From the NCBI GenBank assembly GCA_002878375.1, contig NIRF01000004.1, forward strand, positions 72,534 through 136,533: 64,000 nucleotides of DNA, given 5' to 3'. Shown in pieces: positions 33,804 to 41,805 of the stretch. The notes under the pieces are model-generated. The model had not been told where the DNA came from, ran no database searches, and was given only the letters and a program-made list of their open reading frames with translations. The number at the start of each line of letters is the position of its first letter. Positions within the stretch are counted from its first letter, which is position 1. Both the position numbers and the translations under genes were made by a program. The DNA comes from Dictyoglomus sp. NZ13-RE01. Its GTDB lineage: Bacteria; Dictyoglomota; Dictyoglomia; Dictyoglomales; Dictyoglomaceae.

Positions 33804-34862
33804 TTAAAATCCTATCTTTCCACTTAAAACTGCAGTAGTTATATTATTCGCCAATACATCATATGCAACCCCAGCATCAATTTGCATTAATAGAAGATTA
33901 ATACCAGCTCCTAAAGTATAGTAAAAGGGATTTAGATTCAAGTCAGTTATTGCTCCAGCCCTTAAGGATAGTAAAACAAAAGGAATCTCAACACCAATAT
34001 GAACTGTCTTCTCTCCCATCTCAGGATACCAAATATCTGCCAAAGCCTTAATTCCCAAAATAGGAACTTGTGCCATTACCCCTAATCTATATTCTCTTTC
34101 TGGTAAATCTAAATTAAAATCTGTATTTTGGGAACTTGTAGAAAGCCAAGTAGAATATAAATTTTTGCCCACTAATCCTAATCTTAAAATTGGGGTAATG
34201 TTTAATAGAACCCCTGCATCCACTTTTACTCCATACCCAACCTGAGAACTCGTATAGGTTGTTCCATTATTATAATCATAGACTTCTTTTTGCCCTCTTA
34301 TTCCTGCAATATTAATTCCATATCTTAGTTTAGCAAGTCCCAAAGGAAGATTTGCAAGAGAGGATGCAAAAGTAACATTTAGGGTAGTTTGGTTATTTCC
34401 TTCCGCATGAAGGGTTGCAGTTTGTGTTGATTCAATGTTAGCATTAAAATTACCATCAAAATAATTTGTCATAGCCAAAGAAAAGTTTCTAAACCTTAAT
34501 CCCCCAGAAATTCCAAGCTTTAAAGTACCATCATATTGTTGTGGAGAAGAAGGAGCTTCACCTTGAGACAAGCTTTGGAATAAATCCAAAACCTTTCTCC
34601 AATTCTCTAAATTTTGAGGATCTAAAGGAGAAAGACTTATAGATAAATTTCCTCCTAAACCTAATAAGGAGCTTTTTTCTAATCCTGCAGGATTCCAAAG
34701 AAAGGAAAAGCTTGGATCTGATAGAGCGGTAACAGCCCCTCCAAGACCAAGAGCCCTGGAATCAAAAAGAAGTTCAGGAGAAAGATTTGGAACAATATTA
34801 GAGGCAAAAGATACTGAGAATAAAAATATTGTAACTAAGGCAAAAAGTTTGATAAGCCTCAT
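33804..34862 (-). CDS. PorV/UPF0164-like outer-membrane beta-barrel protein
   Basis: 352-residue protein with a signal peptide (MRLIKLFALVTIFLFSVSFA). The N-terminal plug-like motif DSRALGLGGAVTALSD...NPAGL is typical of PorV/PorQ and FadL-related barrels. Alternating hydrophobic strands run to the C-terminus, which ends in GKIGF; a terminal Phe is the usual outer-membrane insertion signal. A CRP-like dyad lies upstream at class II spacing from its -10. It is one of three related barrels in 9 kb (others at 38893 and 41832). Function is not established; porin-like transport or secretion are both possible. Confidence 0.82.
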   Translation of the reverse strand: MRLIKLFALVTIFLFSVSFASNIVPNLSPELLFDSRALGLGGAVTALSDPSFSFLWNPAGLEKSSLLGLGGNLSISLSPLDPQNLENWRKVLDLFQSLSQGEAPSSPQQYDGTLKLGISGGLRFRNFSLAMTNYFDGNFNANIESTQTATLHAEGNNQTTLNVTFASSLANLPLGLAKLRYGINIAGIRGQKEVYDYNNGTTYTSSQVGYGVKVDAGVLLNITPILRLGLVGKNLYSTWLSTSSQNTDFNLDLPEREYRLGVMAQVPILGIKALADIWYPEMGEKTVHIGVEIPFVLLSLRAGAITDLNLNPFYYTLGAGINLLLMQIDAGVAYDVLANNITTAVLSGKIGF

Positions 34863-34898: not shown

Positions 34899-34904
34899 AT
34901 TTTA
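34899..34904 (-). promoter_or_regulatory. -10 element of the outer-membrane protein gene
   Basis: TAAAAT on the minus strand. Its upstream edge is 29.5 bp from the centre of the CRP-like dyad at 34926-34941, giving a dyad centre near -41.5. No usable -35 is present, as expected for an activator-dependent class II promoter. Confidence 0.55.
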
Positions 34905-34925
34905 CTACTATATTATGTATTTTGC

Positions 34926-34941
34926 TGTGATTAATATCACA
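34926..34941. promoter_or_regulatory. CRP-like binding site
   Basis: TGTGATTAATATCACA, a perfect TGTGA-N6-TCACA dyad, in the divergent region between the outer-membrane protein gene (minus) and pduL (plus). It matches the consensus of CRP/FNR-family activators. Confidence 0.75.
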
Positions 34942-35035
34942 AAAATTAAGAATAAACAAATTTGGAAAAAAGTGGTAAAATATACATGGATAAATTTTTT
35001 AATAGAATGTAAAAATCTCAAGGAGGAGTTTGAAA

Positions 35036-35641
35036 ATGGAAGAAATAAAAGTACCGATTGGAGTCTCTGCAAGACATATCCATCTATCAATGGAGGATAA
35101 AGAAAAACTTTTTGGAGTTGGTTACAAATTAACCCCAAGAAATCCCTTATCACAACCTGGTCAATTTGCTTGTGAGGAAGAGGTGGAGGTAATAGGTCCT
35201 AAAGGAAGAAGTCTTAAATTAAGGATCTTAGGACCAGAAAGAAAAGCAACTCAAGTAGAAATATCTCTTACTGATGCGATTTTCTTAGGCTTAAATCCAC
35301 CCGTAAGAGATTCTGGAGATATTGAAGGAACTCCAGGGATAAAGGTTATAGGTCCCAAAGGAGAGATTGAGCTACCAAAAGGAGTTATTATTGCCTGGAG
35401 ACATATCCATACTCCTACAGAAATTGCTGAAAAGTTGGGATTAGTAGACAAACAACTTGTTAAGGTAAGACTTGGTAAAGAAAGAGCCCTTATATTTGAG
35501 AATGTTCTAATAAGAGTTAGTGATAAGTTTGCCTGGGAACTACACATAGATACTGATGAGGCAAATGCAGCTATGGTCAGAACAGGAGATATTGCAACAT
35601 TAATTTTAGAAGACGCAAGAGAAAAGATATTGCTAAAATAG
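35036..35641 (+). CDS. pduL: Phosphate acyltransferase, PduL type
   Basis: Transfers acyl groups between CoA and phosphate; in organisms lacking Pta, PduL makes acetyl phosphate for ATP generation. The ATG at 35036 is chosen from an overlapping TTG two codons earlier; GGAGG lies 9 nt upstream. The 201-residue protein has two PduL repeats with the zinc His motif SARHIHLS near the start and WRHIHTP near residue 121. There are no microcompartment genes and no N-terminal targeting extension, so it is probably the housekeeping fermentative enzyme. It ends at a strong terminator. Confidence 0.93.
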   Translation: MEEIKVPIGVSARHIHLSMEDKEKLFGVGYKLTPRNPLSQPGQFACEEEVEVIGPKGRSLKLRILGPERKATQVEISLTDAIFLGLNPPVRDSGDIEGTPGIKVIGPKGEIELPKGVIIAWRHIHTPTEIAEKLGLVDKQLVKVRLGKERALIFENVLIRVSDKFAWELHIDTDEANAAMVRTGDIATLILEDAREKILLK

Positions 35642-35674
35642 GCACCTTTATTTAAAAACAAAACATATTAGCAT

Positions 35675-35714
35675 AAAAAGGGGGGACTCAAACATCTTAG
35701 AGTCCCCCCTTTTT
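35675..35714 (+). terminator. Intrinsic terminator of pduL
   Basis: Long stem AAAAAGGGGGGACTC / GAGTCCCCCCTTTTT with a 10-nt loop, ending in a T run. It lies directly upstream of the next promoter. Confidence 0.9.
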
Positions 35715-35715
35715 A

Positions 35716-35724
35716 TGTTATAAT
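35716..35724 (+). promoter_or_regulatory. Extended -10 promoter of the M6 protease gene
   Basis: TGTTATAAT, a TGn-TATAAT extended -10 right after the pduL terminator. No good -35 is needed for this class. Leader of about 30 nt to the ATG with GGAGG inside. Confidence 0.6.
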
Positions 35725-35760
35725 TTTAAAATATAAAAATACAAGAAGGAGGTTTAGTGT

Positions 35761-38700
35761 ATGCGAAGGTTTTTGGGACTCCTGATATTCTTAGTATTCT
35801 TAATCTCCTTTACTTTTGCAGAATCAATTCCCCTAACCAAAGTAAAAATCATGCCACCCCATGAAAAACTCATTGAAAAAAAGGTTAAGCTTCCTACCCT
35901 ACCTGAAGTAACACCCGTGAGTATACCAAAGGGAACTAAAATTTATGGCGTAATTGAAAAAGCGGTAGCTATTGGAAAAGCCATTGTAATTCCCGTAGAG
36001 TTTACTGATAAACCAAGACAACCTGAAGATGTAATACCCTCAAACTACTTTGATATTCTTTTTAATAGTATCGGAGCAGATTGGAGCTCAATTAACCCTT
36101 ATAATGTTGGAAGTGTTAAAGAATTCTACTTAGAAAACTCCTATAATCAATTCAATGTAACAGCAACAGTCCTTCCCTGGTATACTGCCCAAAATACCTA
36201 CACTTACTATATAAACGATGGAAATTATGGATTTAATGGTGGAGTATTTGTTTTAGTAAAAGAGGTTCTTCAACACGCAGTAGATTCTGGATATGATTTA
36301 AGAAATTACGATGTAGTTTTTGTTATTCACTCAGGTCAAGGTGCAGAATGGACTGGAGATCCAAATGACATATGGTCCCATGCATCTACTGTCTATGTAA
36401 ATATTAATGAACAAAAGGTCCCCATAAGATACTCTATTGAGCCCGAATATATGGAAGATTATGATGCCCAAGGAAATCCAGTAATTGTTCCTTCAACAGT
36501 GGGAGTATTTGTTCATGAAATGGGACACTCCTTTGGAGATCTTCCAGACCTTTATGATAGAGACTACTCCTCTTATGGTCTTGGAAGATGGAGCTTGATG
36601 GCAGGAGGATCTTGGAATGGTCCAGCAGGACCTGGTGGATATGCAATAGGTGGAGGACCTTCTCACTTCGATGCCTGGAGTAAGATTCAACTTGGATGGG
36701 TAACTCCCATTATACCCACAGATAATTTAACAAACGTTATAATTCCACCTGTAGAAACAAACCCAGTAGTTTATATGCTTTGGACTGATGGACAAATTGG
36801 AGATCAATATTTCCTACTCGAAAATAGGCAAAAAATTGGATTTGATACTTATCTAAGAGGAGAAGGGCTTCTCATTTACCATGTAGATGAGAAAATGCGA
36901 GGAACCCAAAATGATAATGAATGGTATCCAGGACTTGATCCCTCAAGGCATTATTTAGTAGCTTTAGAACAGGCAAATGGACTTTGGCAATTAGAAAAAA
37001 GACTAAGTTCTGGAAATGCAGGACATCCATATCCTGGCTCCACAAATAATACTACTTTTGATGAAAATAGCACTCCAAACAGCAAAGCTTATGGAGAAAT
37101 TCCTACCACTGTTGCTGTAAGAAATATTGCTGTCTCTGGAGATGATATTACTTGTGATATTTATGTAAAATCTACTCAGGCACCTAATACTCCAAGTTTT
37201 GTAAGCCATATTGCATGGTCTGGAGATAATCCTCTTACAGTAAGACCTCTCTTTAAATGGGAAACTCCCTATGCTACAAATTACAAGCTTCAAGTTGCAA
37301 CTGATCCAGATTTTACAGATTTAGTAATAGACATTAATACCCAAGATACAACATATAGACCTTCTCTTTCTGAAATGCTAAATCTTGGAACTACCTACTA
37401 CGCAAGAATAAGAGCAGAAAATGCCAGTGGAACTTCAGATTGGTCTGTAAAATCCTTTACTACTCCAACAAACTTAGAAGCACTTCTTGTTGCTGATGAT
37501 GGTGGAGAATTTGGAATTGCTCCTTATTTAGAGAATGCTCTTTCTGATGCAGGAGTAACATACAATATAATTGATGTGTTCAAGGATAGTGTAGTACCAT
37601 CCGCACAATATATGGGCTCATATGATTGGGTAATGTGGGCAGGAGATTGGGGTGCAATATATGATCCTTCTGTGCAAAGTGAAATTATGACTTACCTTGA
37701 TAATGGTGGGAAACTCTTTATTACAAGCCAAGACTTAGGTTGGGCATCTTCCGCAGGATATGTAAGCTCTACTTTCTACAACGGCTATCTAAAAGCACAG
37801 TTTGTACAAGATAGTACGGATATTTATTCCATAAAAGGAGTTAATGGAACAACCTTTGAAGGATTAGTCTTTAATTTAAATACTTTAAACTCTGCACAAA
37901 ACCAAGCATATCCTGATGAGATTGATCCACTTTCTGGAGCTCAAGCCCTATTAGTATATAATCCAGAAGGGGTTTCTCCAATTGCTCCTGAAATTAAACT
38001 TCCAGAAAAAATTAAAGAGCAAAAAGCTCCTTTAATAGTAAATAAAGCTATAGCATCCTCTGGAACTGCTGGGCTAATATATGTAGATCCAAATAAACAT
38101 TACAGAGTCGTATATTTTGCCTTTGGACTTGAAGGAGTAGACACTTCAGTTAACGAGGTAATATTAAGAAAGGTAAGAGAACTATTTCTTGATACACAGA
38201 ATCCTAACCTAACATTCACAGTAACTTCATCCTTTAATCCTAATAATAATGAGACATGCAATATCAATGGTACTGTTTCTGATGATTTAGGATATGCTTA
38301 CCTCACTATTCAAGTTTATGATACTGTAAACGGAGTAAAGAATAATCTTGTTAAAACAATCACTAATAATGTAAAAGTCAATAACGGAAGCTTCACCTAT
38401 ACTTGGGATGGTAAGGATGAAAGCGGAAAGGTACTTCCCAATGGAAAATATATAATTGAAGCAACTGCAAAGGATGAATTATATAACACGATAATAAAGA
38501 CTGCATCTACCACTATATCTTCTAATCTACCTCTATCCTTTGCAAATGTTACTAAGTTTACAAAATCCTTCAATCCAAAAGAAGGTCCAGCGGAGATATA
38601 CTTCAATATCACTCAAGATGCAAAAGTAAAGTTTGTAGTATACAACCTTGCTGGAGAAAAAGTATATGAACAAGATTTAGGAGATCTTTCTGCTGGAAAT

Positions 38701-38832
38701 TACAAGGTAGTATGGGAAGGAATAAACTGGAAAGGAATAACCTTACCAAATGGTCTCTATCTATTCCAGCTTGTAGCAAAATCCTCTCAAGGCGAAGTAA
38801 GAATAAATAGGTTTATTGGAATATTGAAATAA
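35761..38832 (+). CDS. Secreted M6-family metalloprotease with FlgD-like C-terminal domain
   Basis: 1023-residue exported zinc protease related to immune inhibitor A. Signal peptide (about 1-20); M6 catalytic domain (about 60-470) with HEMGHSFGDLPD near residue 252, the HExxHxxGxxD zinc site; a fibronectin III-like domain (about 475-570; YYARIRAENASGTSDWS); a Rossmann-like segment (about 575-820; LFITSQDLGW); a domain with NGTVSDDLGYAYL; and a C-terminal FlgD-type Ig domain (about 930-1023; VVYNLAGEKVYEQDL, ITLPNGLYLFQL). The last resembles the C-terminal sorting-domain fold of secreted Bacteroidota proteins. PorV-like barrel genes lie on both sides. Confidence 0.88.
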   Translation: MRRFLGLLIFLVFLISFTFAESIPLTKVKIMPPHEKLIEKKVKLPTLPEVTPVSIPKGTKIYGVIEKAVAIGKAIVIPVEFTDKPRQPEDVIPSNYFDILFNSIGADWSSINPYNVGSVKEFYLENSYNQFNVTATVLPWYTAQNTYTYYINDGNYGFNGGVFVLVKEVLQHAVDSGYDLRNYDVVFVIHSGQGAEWTGDPNDIWSHASTVYVNINEQKVPIRYSIEPEYMEDYDAQGNPVIVPSTVGVFVHEMGHSFGDLPDLYDRDYSSYGLGRWSLMAGGSWNGPAGPGGYAIGGGPSHFDAWSKIQLGWVTPIIPTDNLTNVIIPPVETNPVVYMLWTDGQIGDQYFLLENRQKIGFDTYLRGEGLLIYHVDEKMRGTQNDNEWYPGLDPSRHYLVALEQANGLWQLEKRLSSGNAGHPYPGSTNNTTFDENSTPNSKAYGEIPTTVAVRNIAVSGDDITCDIYVKSTQAPNTPSFVSHIAWSGDNPLTVRPLFKWETPYATNYKLQVATDPDFTDLVIDINTQDTTYRPSLSEMLNLGTTYYARIRAENASGTSDWSVKSFTTPTNLEALLVADDGGEFGIAPYLENALSDAGVTYNIIDVFKDSVVPSAQYMGSYDWVMWAGDWGAIYDPSVQSEIMTYLDNGGKLFITSQDLGWASSAGYVSSTFYNGYLKAQFVQDSTDIYSIKGVNGTTFEGLVFNLNTLNSAQNQAYPDEIDPLSGAQALLVYNPEGVSPIAPEIKLPEKIKEQKAPLIVNKAIASSGTAGLIYVDPNKHYRVVYFAFGLEGVDTSVNEVILRKVRELFLDTQNPNLTFTVTSSFNPNNNETCNINGTVSDDLGYAYLTIQVYDTVNGVKNNLVKTITNNVKVNNGSFTYTWDGKDESGKVLPNGKYIIEATAKDELYNTIIKTASTTISSNLPLSFANVTKFTKSFNPKEGPAEIYFNITQDAKVKFVVYNLAGEKVYEQDLGDLSAGNYKVVWEGINWKGITLPNGLYLFQLVAKSSQGEVRINRFIGILK

Positions 38833-38836
38833 AATT

Positions 38837-38860
38837 AGGGGAGGAAAAATCCTCCCCTTT
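38837..38860 (+). terminator. Hairpin after the M6 protease gene
   Basis: Stem AGGGGAGG / CCTCCCCT around a short A-rich loop, followed by TTT. It separates the protease from the next barrel gene 33 nt further on and may allow partial readthrough. Confidence 0.65.
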
Positions 38861-38892
38861 CATAAATCTATTAAGAAGGAGGATTGGAGTTA

Positions 38893-39747
38893 ATGAGGAA
38901 AGTTATCTTACTGAGTTTTATAATTGTGATTCTTCTAATATCTCAAAGTTTTGCAAGTTTTCCTCCTATGCTTCTAAATGCAAGGGCAGTAGGATTAGGC
39001 GAAGCATACTCCGCTCTTTCCGATGATTGGGGAGCTTTAGTATACAATCCTGCAGGCTTAACCTATGTAGATAAAATTAATGTTGGTTTTACCCACTTAG
39101 AAATGCCAGAATCTTGGACAAGGGTTGAATTTTTAGGAGGAGTATTACCTCTAAACAAAATTTCCTTGGGATTTGGTGCATCTCTTAAAAGTATTGCAAA
39201 CTCTGAAGAACTTTTATTTCCTTTCTCTGAAAACGCCTTCCAAGTCAGCGTAGCAAGTAAAGTTATGCCAAACTTAAGTTTAGGCGCTACTTTATATCTC
39301 TATCTAACCACATTAGATACAGGTTCTGCTCAAGGTTTTGGTGTAGACTTAGGAGCAATATACGAATTAAATCCTAATATAAATCTTTCATTAGCTCTAT
39401 ATAATCCTGTTAGCTATTTAAAATGGTCCACAGGTACAGTAGAAAATGTAGAAAGAAAAGATGTAGTTTTAGGAGGAATGTTTAAATTAAATTTAGGAAA
39501 TATTCCTCTTAAATTTTTAGCGGATGTTTCTCTTCTTGAAAAGATAAACTTTTTAAATAGAGTTCATGTTGGAACAGAGGTAAATTTCCTTCCATTCTTA
39601 ACTCTAAGAACAGGATATGATGGGGCAAAAGAAGGTGTAACTTTTGGTTTAGGCGTAAACTTTTCAAATTTGAATTTTGACTATGCCTTTTTATATACTC
39701 AGGCACTAACACCTCAACATGTAATCAGCTTATCTGGAAAATTTTAA
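38893..39747 (+). CDS. PorV-like outer-membrane beta-barrel protein
   Basis: 284-residue exported protein. ATG 38893 is used (GGAGG 10 nt upstream); the TTG at 38884 is too close to the ribosome site. Signal peptide (about 1-23), then the family motif ARAVGLGEAYSALSDDWGALVYNPAGL, amphipathic strands and a C-terminal LSGKF that ends in Phe. It is smaller than the relative at 33804. It follows the M6 protease gene on the same strand with only a hairpin between, so the two may be partly cotranscribed. Confidence 0.82.
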   Translation: MRKVILLSFIIVILLISQSFASFPPMLLNARAVGLGEAYSALSDDWGALVYNPAGLTYVDKINVGFTHLEMPESWTRVEFLGGVLPLNKISLGFGASLKSIANSEELLFPFSENAFQVSVASKVMPNLSLGATLYLYLTTLDTGSAQGFGVDLGAIYELNPNINLSLALYNPVSYLKWSTGTVENVERKDVVLGGMFKLNLGNIPLKFLADVSLLEKINFLNRVHVGTEVNFLPFLTLRTGYDGAKEGVTFGLGVNFSNLNFDYAFLYTQALTPQHVISLSGKF

Positions 39748-39749
39748 GA

Positions 39750-39775
39750 GATTGGGGGCAAATTTGCCCCCAATC
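39750..39775. terminator. Bidirectional terminator
   Basis: Perfect 26-bp palindrome with arms GATTGGGGGCAAA / TTTGCCCCCAATC between convergent genes. Confidence 0.85.
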
Positions 39776-39776
39776 C

Positions 39777-40535
39777 TTAATGTCTTTTTAGCCATTCATA
39801 AATAGTATTATAAAATCTTTCAGAATGTTCCTCATCCTCAAATAATTCGTGGTATCCTCCTTCAAATTTTACTAATGCTTTATCCTGAGAGGTTAGCTTT
39901 TCAAAAAATTCTATACTTCCTTTAGGTGGTGTAATTTTGTCTGCAGTTCCTATTAATATTAAAACAGGAACTTTTATCTCTTTTGCCTTCTGATGAGCAA
40001 TCTCTATATTTTTAGCCATTGAATTTCCAAGCCTAAAAGAGATCTTATCATGAACAAGAGGATCCTTTATATATTTTTCTACTGCATTCCTATTTCTTGA
40101 TAATTGACTTGTGTCTAATCCATTACTTATAGTTCTATGAGGGGTAAGCTTGCTAAAAATCTCCACAAATTTTCTCAAAAAAGGAGATACTTCCACATAT
40201 AATGCAGGAGAAGAAACAACTAAAGATTTTATTTTACCTCCTCTCTCCTCAACATATCTTACTGCTATCAATCCACCAAGGCTATGTCCAAATATGTGAA
40301 ATTCTCCTAAATCTTTTGTTAAATCATCAATGATACTAATTACCTCTTCAATATCTGTATCTCCCCTTATTCCATCACTTCTTCCATGACCTGGCAAATC
40401 AAAGCCTATAACACCAAAACCTAAATCCTCCAAATCTTTTATCATCTTTTCATATCTTCCTATATGTTCTCCTAATCCATGCACTATCAACACCCATCCA
40501 TTCTCAGGTTTTCCTCTTCTAAAAGAGTAAATCAT
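39777..40535 (-). CDS. Alpha/beta hydrolase, monoacylglycerol lipase-like
   Basis: 252-residue serine hydrolase. The ATG at 40535 is preceded by AGGAGG at 6 nt; the longer frame reads through that site. HGLGEHIGRYEKM forms the oxyanion region, GHSLGG carries the nucleophile Ser (about residue 92), the Asp lies in IGTADKITPP and the His in EGGYHELFED. The HGLGEH and GHSLGG pattern is that of lysophospholipase/monoacylglycerol lipases. No signal peptide, so cytoplasmic. It is a single-gene unit ending at a bidirectional hairpin. Confidence 0.88.
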   Translation of the reverse strand: MIYSFRRGKPENGWVLIVHGLGEHIGRYEKMIKDLEDLGFGVIGFDLPGHGRSDGIRGDTDIEEVISIIDDLTKDLGEFHIFGHSLGGLIAVRYVEERGGKIKSLVVSSPALYVEVSPFLRKFVEIFSKLTPHRTISNGLDTSQLSRNRNAVEKYIKDPLVHDKISFRLGNSMAKNIEIAHQKAKEIKVPVLILIGTADKITPPKGSIEFFEKLTSQDKALVKFEGGYHELFEDEEHSERFYNTIYEWLKRH

Positions 40536-40614
40536 AAAAACCCTCCTCAAATCATGTTTTTAATATATTATAAATCAAGATTAAAAAATTTTTAAAAATA
40601 TTTTTCTTATATTA

Positions 40615-40623
40615 TGCTATACT
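40615..40623 (+). promoter_or_regulatory. Extended -10 promoter of the aldolase gene
   Basis: TGCTATACT, a TGn-TATACT extended -10, about 38 nt before the ATG at 40661. The -35 region is A/T only. Confidence 0.55.
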
Positions 40624-40660
40624 TACTCTGAGAAATAAAATTTTAGGGAGGTTTAAAAAG

Positions 40661-41605
40661 ATGCCATTAGTAAGTACAAAGGAAATGTTCAAAAAATGTT
40701 ATGGTAAATATGCGATAGGTGCTTTTAATGTAAATAATATGGAGATATTACAAGGAGTAATAGAAGCAGCAAAAGAAGAAAAAGCCCCATTAATTCTACA
40801 GATCTCAAAAGGAGCAAGGAACTATGCAAAACTTGTTTACCTAATGAAACTTGTAGAAGCAGCTATGGAGGATGCGCCAGATATACCTATTTGTGTCCAC
40901 TTAGATCATGGAGACTCCTTTGAGCTTTGTAAAGAGGTTATTGATGCTGGATTTACATCTGTTATGATCGATGGATCTCATTTACCTTTTGAGGAAAACG
41001 TAGCATTAACAAAGAAAGTTGTAGAATATGCCCATCCAAGAGGAGTTGTTGTGGAAGGAGAGCTTGGAAAACTCAAGGGAATTGAAGAGCATGTAGTTTC
41101 TGCTGAGGACGTTTTCACAGATCCTGATGAGGCAGTAAAATTTGTAGAACTTACAGGAGTAGACTCCCTAGCTATTTCAATTGGTACAAGCCATGGAGCT
41201 TATAAGTTTAAGGGAGAACCAAAACTTGATTTTGACAGATTACAAGAGATTGCTAAGAGACTTCCAGGATTTCCATTAGTTTTACATGGTGCCTCTTCTG
41301 TTCCTCAGGATTTGGTAGAAAAAGCCAATAAATATGGTGCAAAAATTGGAGGAGCAAGGGGAGTTCCTGAAGAGATGATAAGAAAGGCAACAACCATGGG
41401 AATTTGCAAGGTTAACATCGATACTGATTTAAGACTTGCCTTAACAGCTACTTTAAGAGAGCAATTTTACCTTCATCCAGAAGAATTTGATCCAAGAAAA
41501 TATTTAGGACCAGCCCGTGAAGCCATTAAAGAGGTGGTAAAGCACAAATTAAGAGATGTCCTTGGGTGTAGTGGGAAGGCGGAAGAGATTTTACAATCTA
41601 AATAA
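40661..41605 (+). CDS. fba: Fructose-1,6-bisphosphate aldolase, class II
   Basis: Zinc-dependent glycolytic enzyme splitting fructose 1,6-bisphosphate. The 314-residue protein fits class IIB: YAIGAFNVNNMEIL at the N-terminus, zinc ligands in HLDHGDSFE (about residues 84-92), catalytic region EGELGKLKG, the second zinc His in SIGTSHGAYK and the third in VLHGASSV, then GICKVNIDTDLR for phosphate binding. GGGAGG precedes the ATG. Monocistronic with its own promoter and terminator. Related enzymes such as IolJ are less likely given the close match to glycolytic motifs. Confidence 0.95.
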   Translation: MPLVSTKEMFKKCYGKYAIGAFNVNNMEILQGVIEAAKEEKAPLILQISKGARNYAKLVYLMKLVEAAMEDAPDIPICVHLDHGDSFELCKEVIDAGFTSVMIDGSHLPFEENVALTKKVVEYAHPRGVVVEGELGKLKGIEEHVVSAEDVFTDPDEAVKFVELTGVDSLAISIGTSHGAYKFKGEPKLDFDRLQEIAKRLPGFPLVLHGASSVPQDLVEKANKYGAKIGGARGVPEEMIRKATTMGICKVNIDTDLRLALTATLREQFYLHPEEFDPRKYLGPAREAIKEVVKHKLRDVLGCSGKAEEILQSK

Positions 41606-41608
41606 AAT

Positions 41609-41635
41609 AAAGGAGGGGATTAATCCCCTCCTTTT
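41609..41635 (+). terminator. Intrinsic terminator of fba
   Basis: AAAGGAGGGGAT / ATCCCCTCCTTT stem with minimal loop and a following T run. Confidence 0.9.
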
Positions 41636-41729
41636 AAACTCTTAAACCAATCTAAACCTTTCCCCATCAATACACCAAATCCCATTTTATCCCGTATGTT
41701 CAATGCTATATTGGAAATTGAATAATCTA

Positions 41730-41745
41730 TGTGATTAAAATCACA
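41730..41745. promoter_or_regulatory. CRP-like binding site, distal
   Basis: TGTGATTAAAATCACA, a perfect TGTGA-N6-TCACA dyad, 23 bp upstream of a second site. It differs from the site at 34926 by one base in the spacer. Confidence 0.75.
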
Positions 41746-41752
41746 AAAATTC

Positions 41753-41768
41753 TGTGACAAATCTCACT
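41753..41768. promoter_or_regulatory. CRP-like binding site, proximal
   Basis: TGTGACAAATCTCACT, one mismatch from TGTGA-N6-TCACA. Its centre is 29.5 bp from the TATAAA -10 element, the same spacing as at 34926. Confidence 0.65.
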
Positions 41769-41776
41769 GATCTTCC

Positions 41777-41805
41777 TTTACAAGCATTCTATAAAATAAT
41801 AGAAT
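41777..41805 (+). promoter_or_regulatory. Promoter region of the third barrel gene
   Basis: Two readings overlap. TATAAA at 41790-41795 is placed at class II spacing from the proximal CRP-like site. Alternatively TTTACA (41777-41782), 17 nt, TAGAAT (41800-41805) forms a conventional promoter. Confidence 0.5.

Follow-up and report, generated by a model that had tools for sequence, protein, structure and literature searches.

Two genes for PorV-like outer-membrane barrels lie in the window (the whole 64-kb stretch of Dictyoglomus DNA that was analyzed), each preceded by CRP-type dyads and a -10-like hexamer (table 1). The first-pass annotation had reported perfect TGTGA-N6-TCACA dyads upstream of both genes, a near match beside the second, -10-like hexamers, and no -35 in either promoter, and all of these were recovered where it had placed them; at 15-19 bp spacing the best match to TTGACA carries four mismatches in the first promoter and three in the second. 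It had further put a dyad centre 29.5 bp from the -10, at about -41.5, in both cases. This holds for the first gene (centre 34933.5, 29.5 bp to the -10 at 34904) but not for the perfect dyad of the second, which stands 52.5 bp from its -10 (41790) and thus at about -64.5; the 29.5 bp and the -41.5 position belong to its weaker neighbour, with one mismatch. The second promoter therefore carries two dyads in tandem, 23 bp apart (about -64.5 and -41.5), and it is the weaker one that occupies the class II position. Taken from the predicted starts, class II placement (dyad centre near -41.5) applies to 34926-34941 and 41753-41768, not to 41730-41745. Since gene 33804-34862 has no clear orthologue in related genomes, its site cannot be checked by conservation.

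Table 1. Coordinates of promoter features and genes in the window
Feature	Position	Strand	Remarks
PorV-like outer-membrane barrel, signal peptide, 352 aa	33804..34862	-	NF033709 E 9e-8, below cut-off
-10 element TAAAAT	34899..34904	-	21 bp downstream of dyad 34926-34941; predicted transcription start ~34892 (inferred)
CRP-type dyad TGTGATATTAATCACA (minus-strand reading)	34926..34941	-	~-41.5 of PorV-like gene 33804-34862
Divergent phosphate propanoyltransferase gene	35030..35641	+	shares the first intergenic region; nearest TAAAAT 34 bp after dyad
Distal dyad TGTGATTAAAATCACA	41730..41745	+	centre 41737.5, ~-64.5 of second PorV-like gene
Proximal dyad TGTGACAAATCTCACT	41753..41768	+	centre 41760.5, ~-41.5; 23 bp from distal dyad
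-10 element TATAAA	41790..41795	+	21 bp downstream of proximal dyad; predicted transcription start ~41802 (inferred)
PorV-like outer-membrane barrel, signal peptide, 278 aa	41832..42668	+	best PDB fold match 6h3i chain F

The description of both products as PorV-like barrels is in line with their signal peptides and weak PorV-family matches, but their scores against NF033709 (32 and 37 bits) stay under the family cut-off of 90, and neither can be assigned to PorV/PorQ by score. The structural model of the second barrel (pLDDT 66, pTM 0.61) matches best, among PDB chains, a Type 9 translocon component (6h3i_F; E 3e-5, TM 0.47), which we take to be PorV; going by this model, a PorV-like barrel is the probable, not proven, product. 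A third PorV-family protein is encoded at 38884-39747 (NF033709, 71.6 bits), directly after the gene for an M6-type metalloprotease of 1023 aa with FlgD_ig as its C-terminal domain (35761-38832), an order reminiscent of a Type 9 secretion cargo and its shuttle; no dyad was found upstream of either gene.

We compared seven genomes of the family Dictyoglomaceae: that of the window (G000), two congeners (G001 and G002), and four of a second genus (G003-G006). The genome-wide motif scan that had been proposed returned six perfect TGTGA-N6-TCACA sites in the 1.93 Mb (34 contigs) of the window's genome, against 0.78 expected (Markov-1) and none for the reversed-pattern control; in the window alone there are two against 0.026 expected, and in the congeners eight and six, the control again giving none. 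At up to one mismatch the window holds three dyads against 1.09 expected, a count reached in 10 of 100 shuffles and so not significant alone. With a weight matrix built without the window sites, the same three dyads rank first to third in the window (22.5, 22.5, and 15.5 bits; next 9.8). A genome-wide pattern search at two mismatches is noisy (506 matches vs. 418 for the control). The core GTGA-N6-TCAC is enriched in the three genomes of the window's genus (14, 18, and 14 vs. 6, 6, and 3 for the control) and not enriched by count in the other genus (8, 4, 7, and 11 vs. 5, 4, 9, and 11). Dyads inside genes (e.g. loci L146, L147, L149, and L159) were dismissed as chance.

Using the core dyads of the seven genomes (flanks of most retrieved, in-gene sites excluded), 94 oriented intergenic dyads are followed at 20-22 bp by 31 TATAAT-like hexamers, where other 3-bp bins hold 5.6 on average and at most 11; orthologous promoters are counted repeatedly in these figures, which overstates independence, and the fairest replication is that between the two genera. 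The peak is seen in both genera, in the second despite the lack of core-dyad enrichment by count, and no peak appears for in-gene dyads. A -10 at this distance puts the dyad centre near -41.5, that is, in class II position.

The tandem arrangement recurs as well. When second dyads were sought within 100 bp (up to two mismatches), 12 of 13 counts fell at exactly 23 bp, each pair of good sites being entered twice. A search for two dyads 23 bp apart, with three mismatches allowed, found three, four, and one in G000, G001, and G002, respectively, and the reversed control none in any. All three tandems of the window's genome precede genes for PorV-like barrels (41832 and those at loci L001 and L005, the latter two assigned by RALG/NPA-type N-terminal motifs), and the downstream dyad of most tandems lies 20-21 bp from a -10. 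Gene 41832 has its tandem in G001 too; in G002 the tandem has decayed, and the other genus lacks it. That of the L001-type PorV-like gene (locus L001 1501-1539) is shared with a divergent Hsp20-like gene (also L052 861; L059 813), which in G001 and G002 has a TATAAT about 8 bp from the other dyad; this suggests that the two genes may be oppositely regulated. In the two congeners, the gap that separates a tRNA-like gene from a divergent membrane-sensor-like gene also contains a perfect dyad (L051 804, L056 821).

Class II promoters with an assignable gene number 33 over all genomes, and 27 of these targets have signal-like N-termini, compared with 14 of 54 window genes (p 3e-7, the genomes not being independent); in the window's genome alone the fraction is 8/11 (Fisher p 0.005). 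Among the targets are PorV-like barrels, lipoproteins, a FecR-domain protein, exported proteins of an EKIIIVP-type family, and a pilin-like protein of G001. In the window's genome the exceptions, named by reading their sequences, are a dehydrogenase-like gene, an orotate phosphoribosyltransferase-like gene, and the gene that faces the latter. Early in-frame stops or a frame change interrupt two lipoprotein genes of this genome that have a dyad upstream (L047 483-695, L004 1204-1392); these are either decayed genes or assembly errors.

Which protein might read these sites? The proposal in the first-pass annotation depended on the genome encoding a CRP/FNR homologue with a matching recognition helix, and exactly one candidate exists: a 226-aa protein (contig C8, 14050-14727), at once the only cNMP-binding protein and the only one with a Crp helix-turn-helix above cut-off. 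Its domains (PF00027, E 1e-27; PF13545, E 2.5e-19) place it in the CRP subfamily; against the NF008732 CRP profile it scores 135 bits, under the 266 cut-off. Orthologues occur in all seven genomes (68-85% over the length). In alignments with orthologues of both genera, the DNA-contacting R180, E181, T182, and R185 of Escherichia coli CRP are retained, so the protein is expected to read TGTGA. Its closest PDB sequence matches include the Crp-family 4ev0 and Mycobacterium tuberculosis CRP (3d0s), and also E. coli CRP; the first entry is a large protein matched only via its cNMP domains. Of the activating regions of E. coli CRP, AR1 is not conserved, nor is part of AR2. Acidic residues are present at 52, 54, 55, and 58; in E. 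coli CRP, K52 normally masks AR3, and the acidic patch would fit an exposed AR3-like contact with sigma. A scan of three crp loci at up to two mismatches found no dyad, and thus gives no sign of direct crp autoregulation.

A potential source of the second messenger is encoded too. An operon of a FecR-domain gene and a CHASE2-class III adenylate cyclase gene is present in all three genomes of the window's genus (domains checked in G000: PF00211, E 9e-26; CHASE2, E 2e-60), G001 having an additional second cyclase match. The closest PDB relative of the catalytic domain is Pseudomonas aeruginosa CyaB, with which FADIRNF, DKFLGDAIM, YTAIG, and VNLAERLES all align, and each well-assembled genome of the family has an apparently intact class III cyclase. 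In the three genomes of the window's genus the operon is preceded by TGTGA-N6-TCACT-N20-TATAAT. A class II dyad at this place predicts positive feedback, with CRP raising its own second messenger; such feedback would be confined to one genus, as the orthologous operon, present in both complete genomes of the other, has no dyad. The operon comes after a coaX-like gene in the same order in both genera (L117, L118, L119, L197, and L198), the gap between them containing a CRP dyad in the window's genus only. The CHASE2 sensor and the barrel-like FecR-domain partner point to an extracytoplasmic signal for the cyclase.

We infer that the sites are very probably bound by this sole CRP-type activator, most likely with cAMP, acting from class II position, with cooperativity at the tandems, on an envelope regulon with cyclase feedback. 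The earlier suggestion that a CRP/FNR-family activator controls the barrels from class II position is strongly supported by the presence of the regulator, by the -10 enrichment across genera, and by the mostly envelope targets; at the level of sequence, there is good support for a class II regulon of cAMP-CRP that is given over to the envelope. The ligand is the point on which another reading fares best. The same protein could bind the sites with a different cyclic nucleotide or with none, the cyclase and the regulon then not forming one circuit. The pocket of all family members read has T127 replaced by Ala and S128 by Asn, 4ev0 (the second-best PDB sequence match) has Ala-Asp at these places, and the cyclase operon of the other genus is without a dyad. 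Yet G71, E72, R82, and S83 of the cAMP pocket are kept, M. tuberculosis CRP likewise has Asn at the S128 place, and an intact-looking cyclase accompanies the regulator in every well-assembled genome; we consider a ligand other than cAMP rather unlikely.

If the dyads were instead repressor operators, protein bound near the promoter core would block transcription, which would suit places where a dyad lies close to an opposite-direction -10 (e.g. at the divergent Hsp20-like genes, about 8 bp from TATAAT). Operators, however, are not bound to a single spacing, and the dominant -41.5 placement, together with the missing -35 of the window promoters, is a hallmark of class II activation, which makes repression an improbable general account. 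Control of the barrels by an FNR-like redox regulator, in line with the redox signal that the first-pass annotation had entertained, would draw on the inner T-N4-A of the dyad, which resembles FNR sites. Cultured D. turgidum is, moreover, strictly anaerobic (PMC5167688). Against it, there is only one cysteine (C53), where FNR has four, in the sole full CRP/FNR-type protein that was found, and hence no FNR-type cluster, its recognition helix matches CRP, the outer half-site is TGTGA and not TTGAT, and a class III adenylate cyclase is encoded; on the cysteine count we rejected FNR-like sensing as very improbable. That the dyads are chance palindromes of AT-rich intergenic DNA, as the shuffles that match the window's one-mismatch count might hint, is refuted for the set, with next to no likelihood left, by the perfect-site counts, the leave-out matrix ranks, the -10 and 23-bp spacings, and the recurrence upstream of orthologues, while any single site could still be idle.

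For cAMP-CRP as class II activator, the following scheme can be proposed. At the first gene, a single CRP dimer at about -41.5 would contact RNA polymerase, standing in for the missing -35. At the second, two adjoining dimers 23 bp apart would be centred near -41.5 and -64.5, and the weaker proximal site is probably helped to fill by the good distal one through cooperative binding. The second dimer would lie where docking of the polymerase alpha C-terminal domain is expected; because it would fill the DNA that this domain usually occupies, cooperative binding with alpha shifted upstream is the arrangement suggested. An envelope-side signal, relayed through FecR, CHASE2, and the adenylate cyclase, would let CRP increase its own cAMP supply. 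More speculatively, and with considerable doubt, cAMP-CRP of Dictyoglomaceae might be a switch for outer-membrane remodelling with positive feedback, in which the FecR-CHASE2 signal and the tandem dimers yield a steep, cooperative PorV-like response, perhaps tied to the bundles and spheres in which Dictyoglomus cells share an outer membrane.

In teaching, CRP usually stands for control by the carbon source. In this little-studied thermophilic phylum, the predicted CRP regulon consists chiefly of cell-surface genes, together with the gene for its own cyclase. The conserved 23-bp tandem is a natural setting in which to ask whether a class II promoter can be activated by two CRP dimers that abut each other. 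For the unusual structures in which Dictyoglomus cells share an outer membrane (PMC3162934), the analysis also supplies a concrete candidate regulator.

Among solved relatives, M. tuberculosis CRP (Rv3676) is one of the nearest by sequence and shares the Asn at the S128 place, whereas the Dictyoglomus regulator has Ala instead of Thr at T127. The regulon of Rv3676 differs. Class II promoters of E. coli cAMP-CRP (e.g. galP1) are alike in the dyad near -41.5, the poor or missing -35, and the DNA-contact residues; in a ChIP-exo study the CRP motif peaks at -41.5, -61.5, and -93.5 (PMC5957442). In contrast to E. coli class II and tandem class III promoters, the second Dictyoglomus site abuts the first at 23 bp upstream (-64.5) and the regulon, as far as seen, is centred on the envelope. 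The published tandem arrangements compared are all more widely spaced; the study of Vibrio cholerae tfoX, for instance, has a spacing of 43 bp and cites sites placed 40 or 50 bp upstream as the most synergistic (PMC4595672). In Sinorhizobium meliloti, a FecR-domain gene beside that of the CHASE2 cyclase CyaD1 is among the targets of Clr (PMC5498481). The CRP-type regulator, the CHASE2 receptor cyclase, and the FecR-domain target are thus common to both systems, yet in Dictyoglomus, a thermophile of another phylum, the FecR gene heads the cyclase operon and has a class II dyad, and the crp gene lies elsewhere. Similarly, in Campylobacterota a CHASE2 adenylate cyclase gene adjoins that of a FecR-domain outer-membrane protein (PMC9239204); this adjacency is shared, whereas the two-gene operon of Dictyoglomus shows no phosphodiesterase or TPR gene, and what this comparison adds is a link between such clusters and CRP sites. 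Our literature searches turned up no description of a CRP regulon for the Dictyoglomus group. Overall, the novelty lies in known pieces, class II CRP and the FecR-CHASE2-cyclase module, being joined in one phylum, with an unusual regulon and an unusual tandem spacing.
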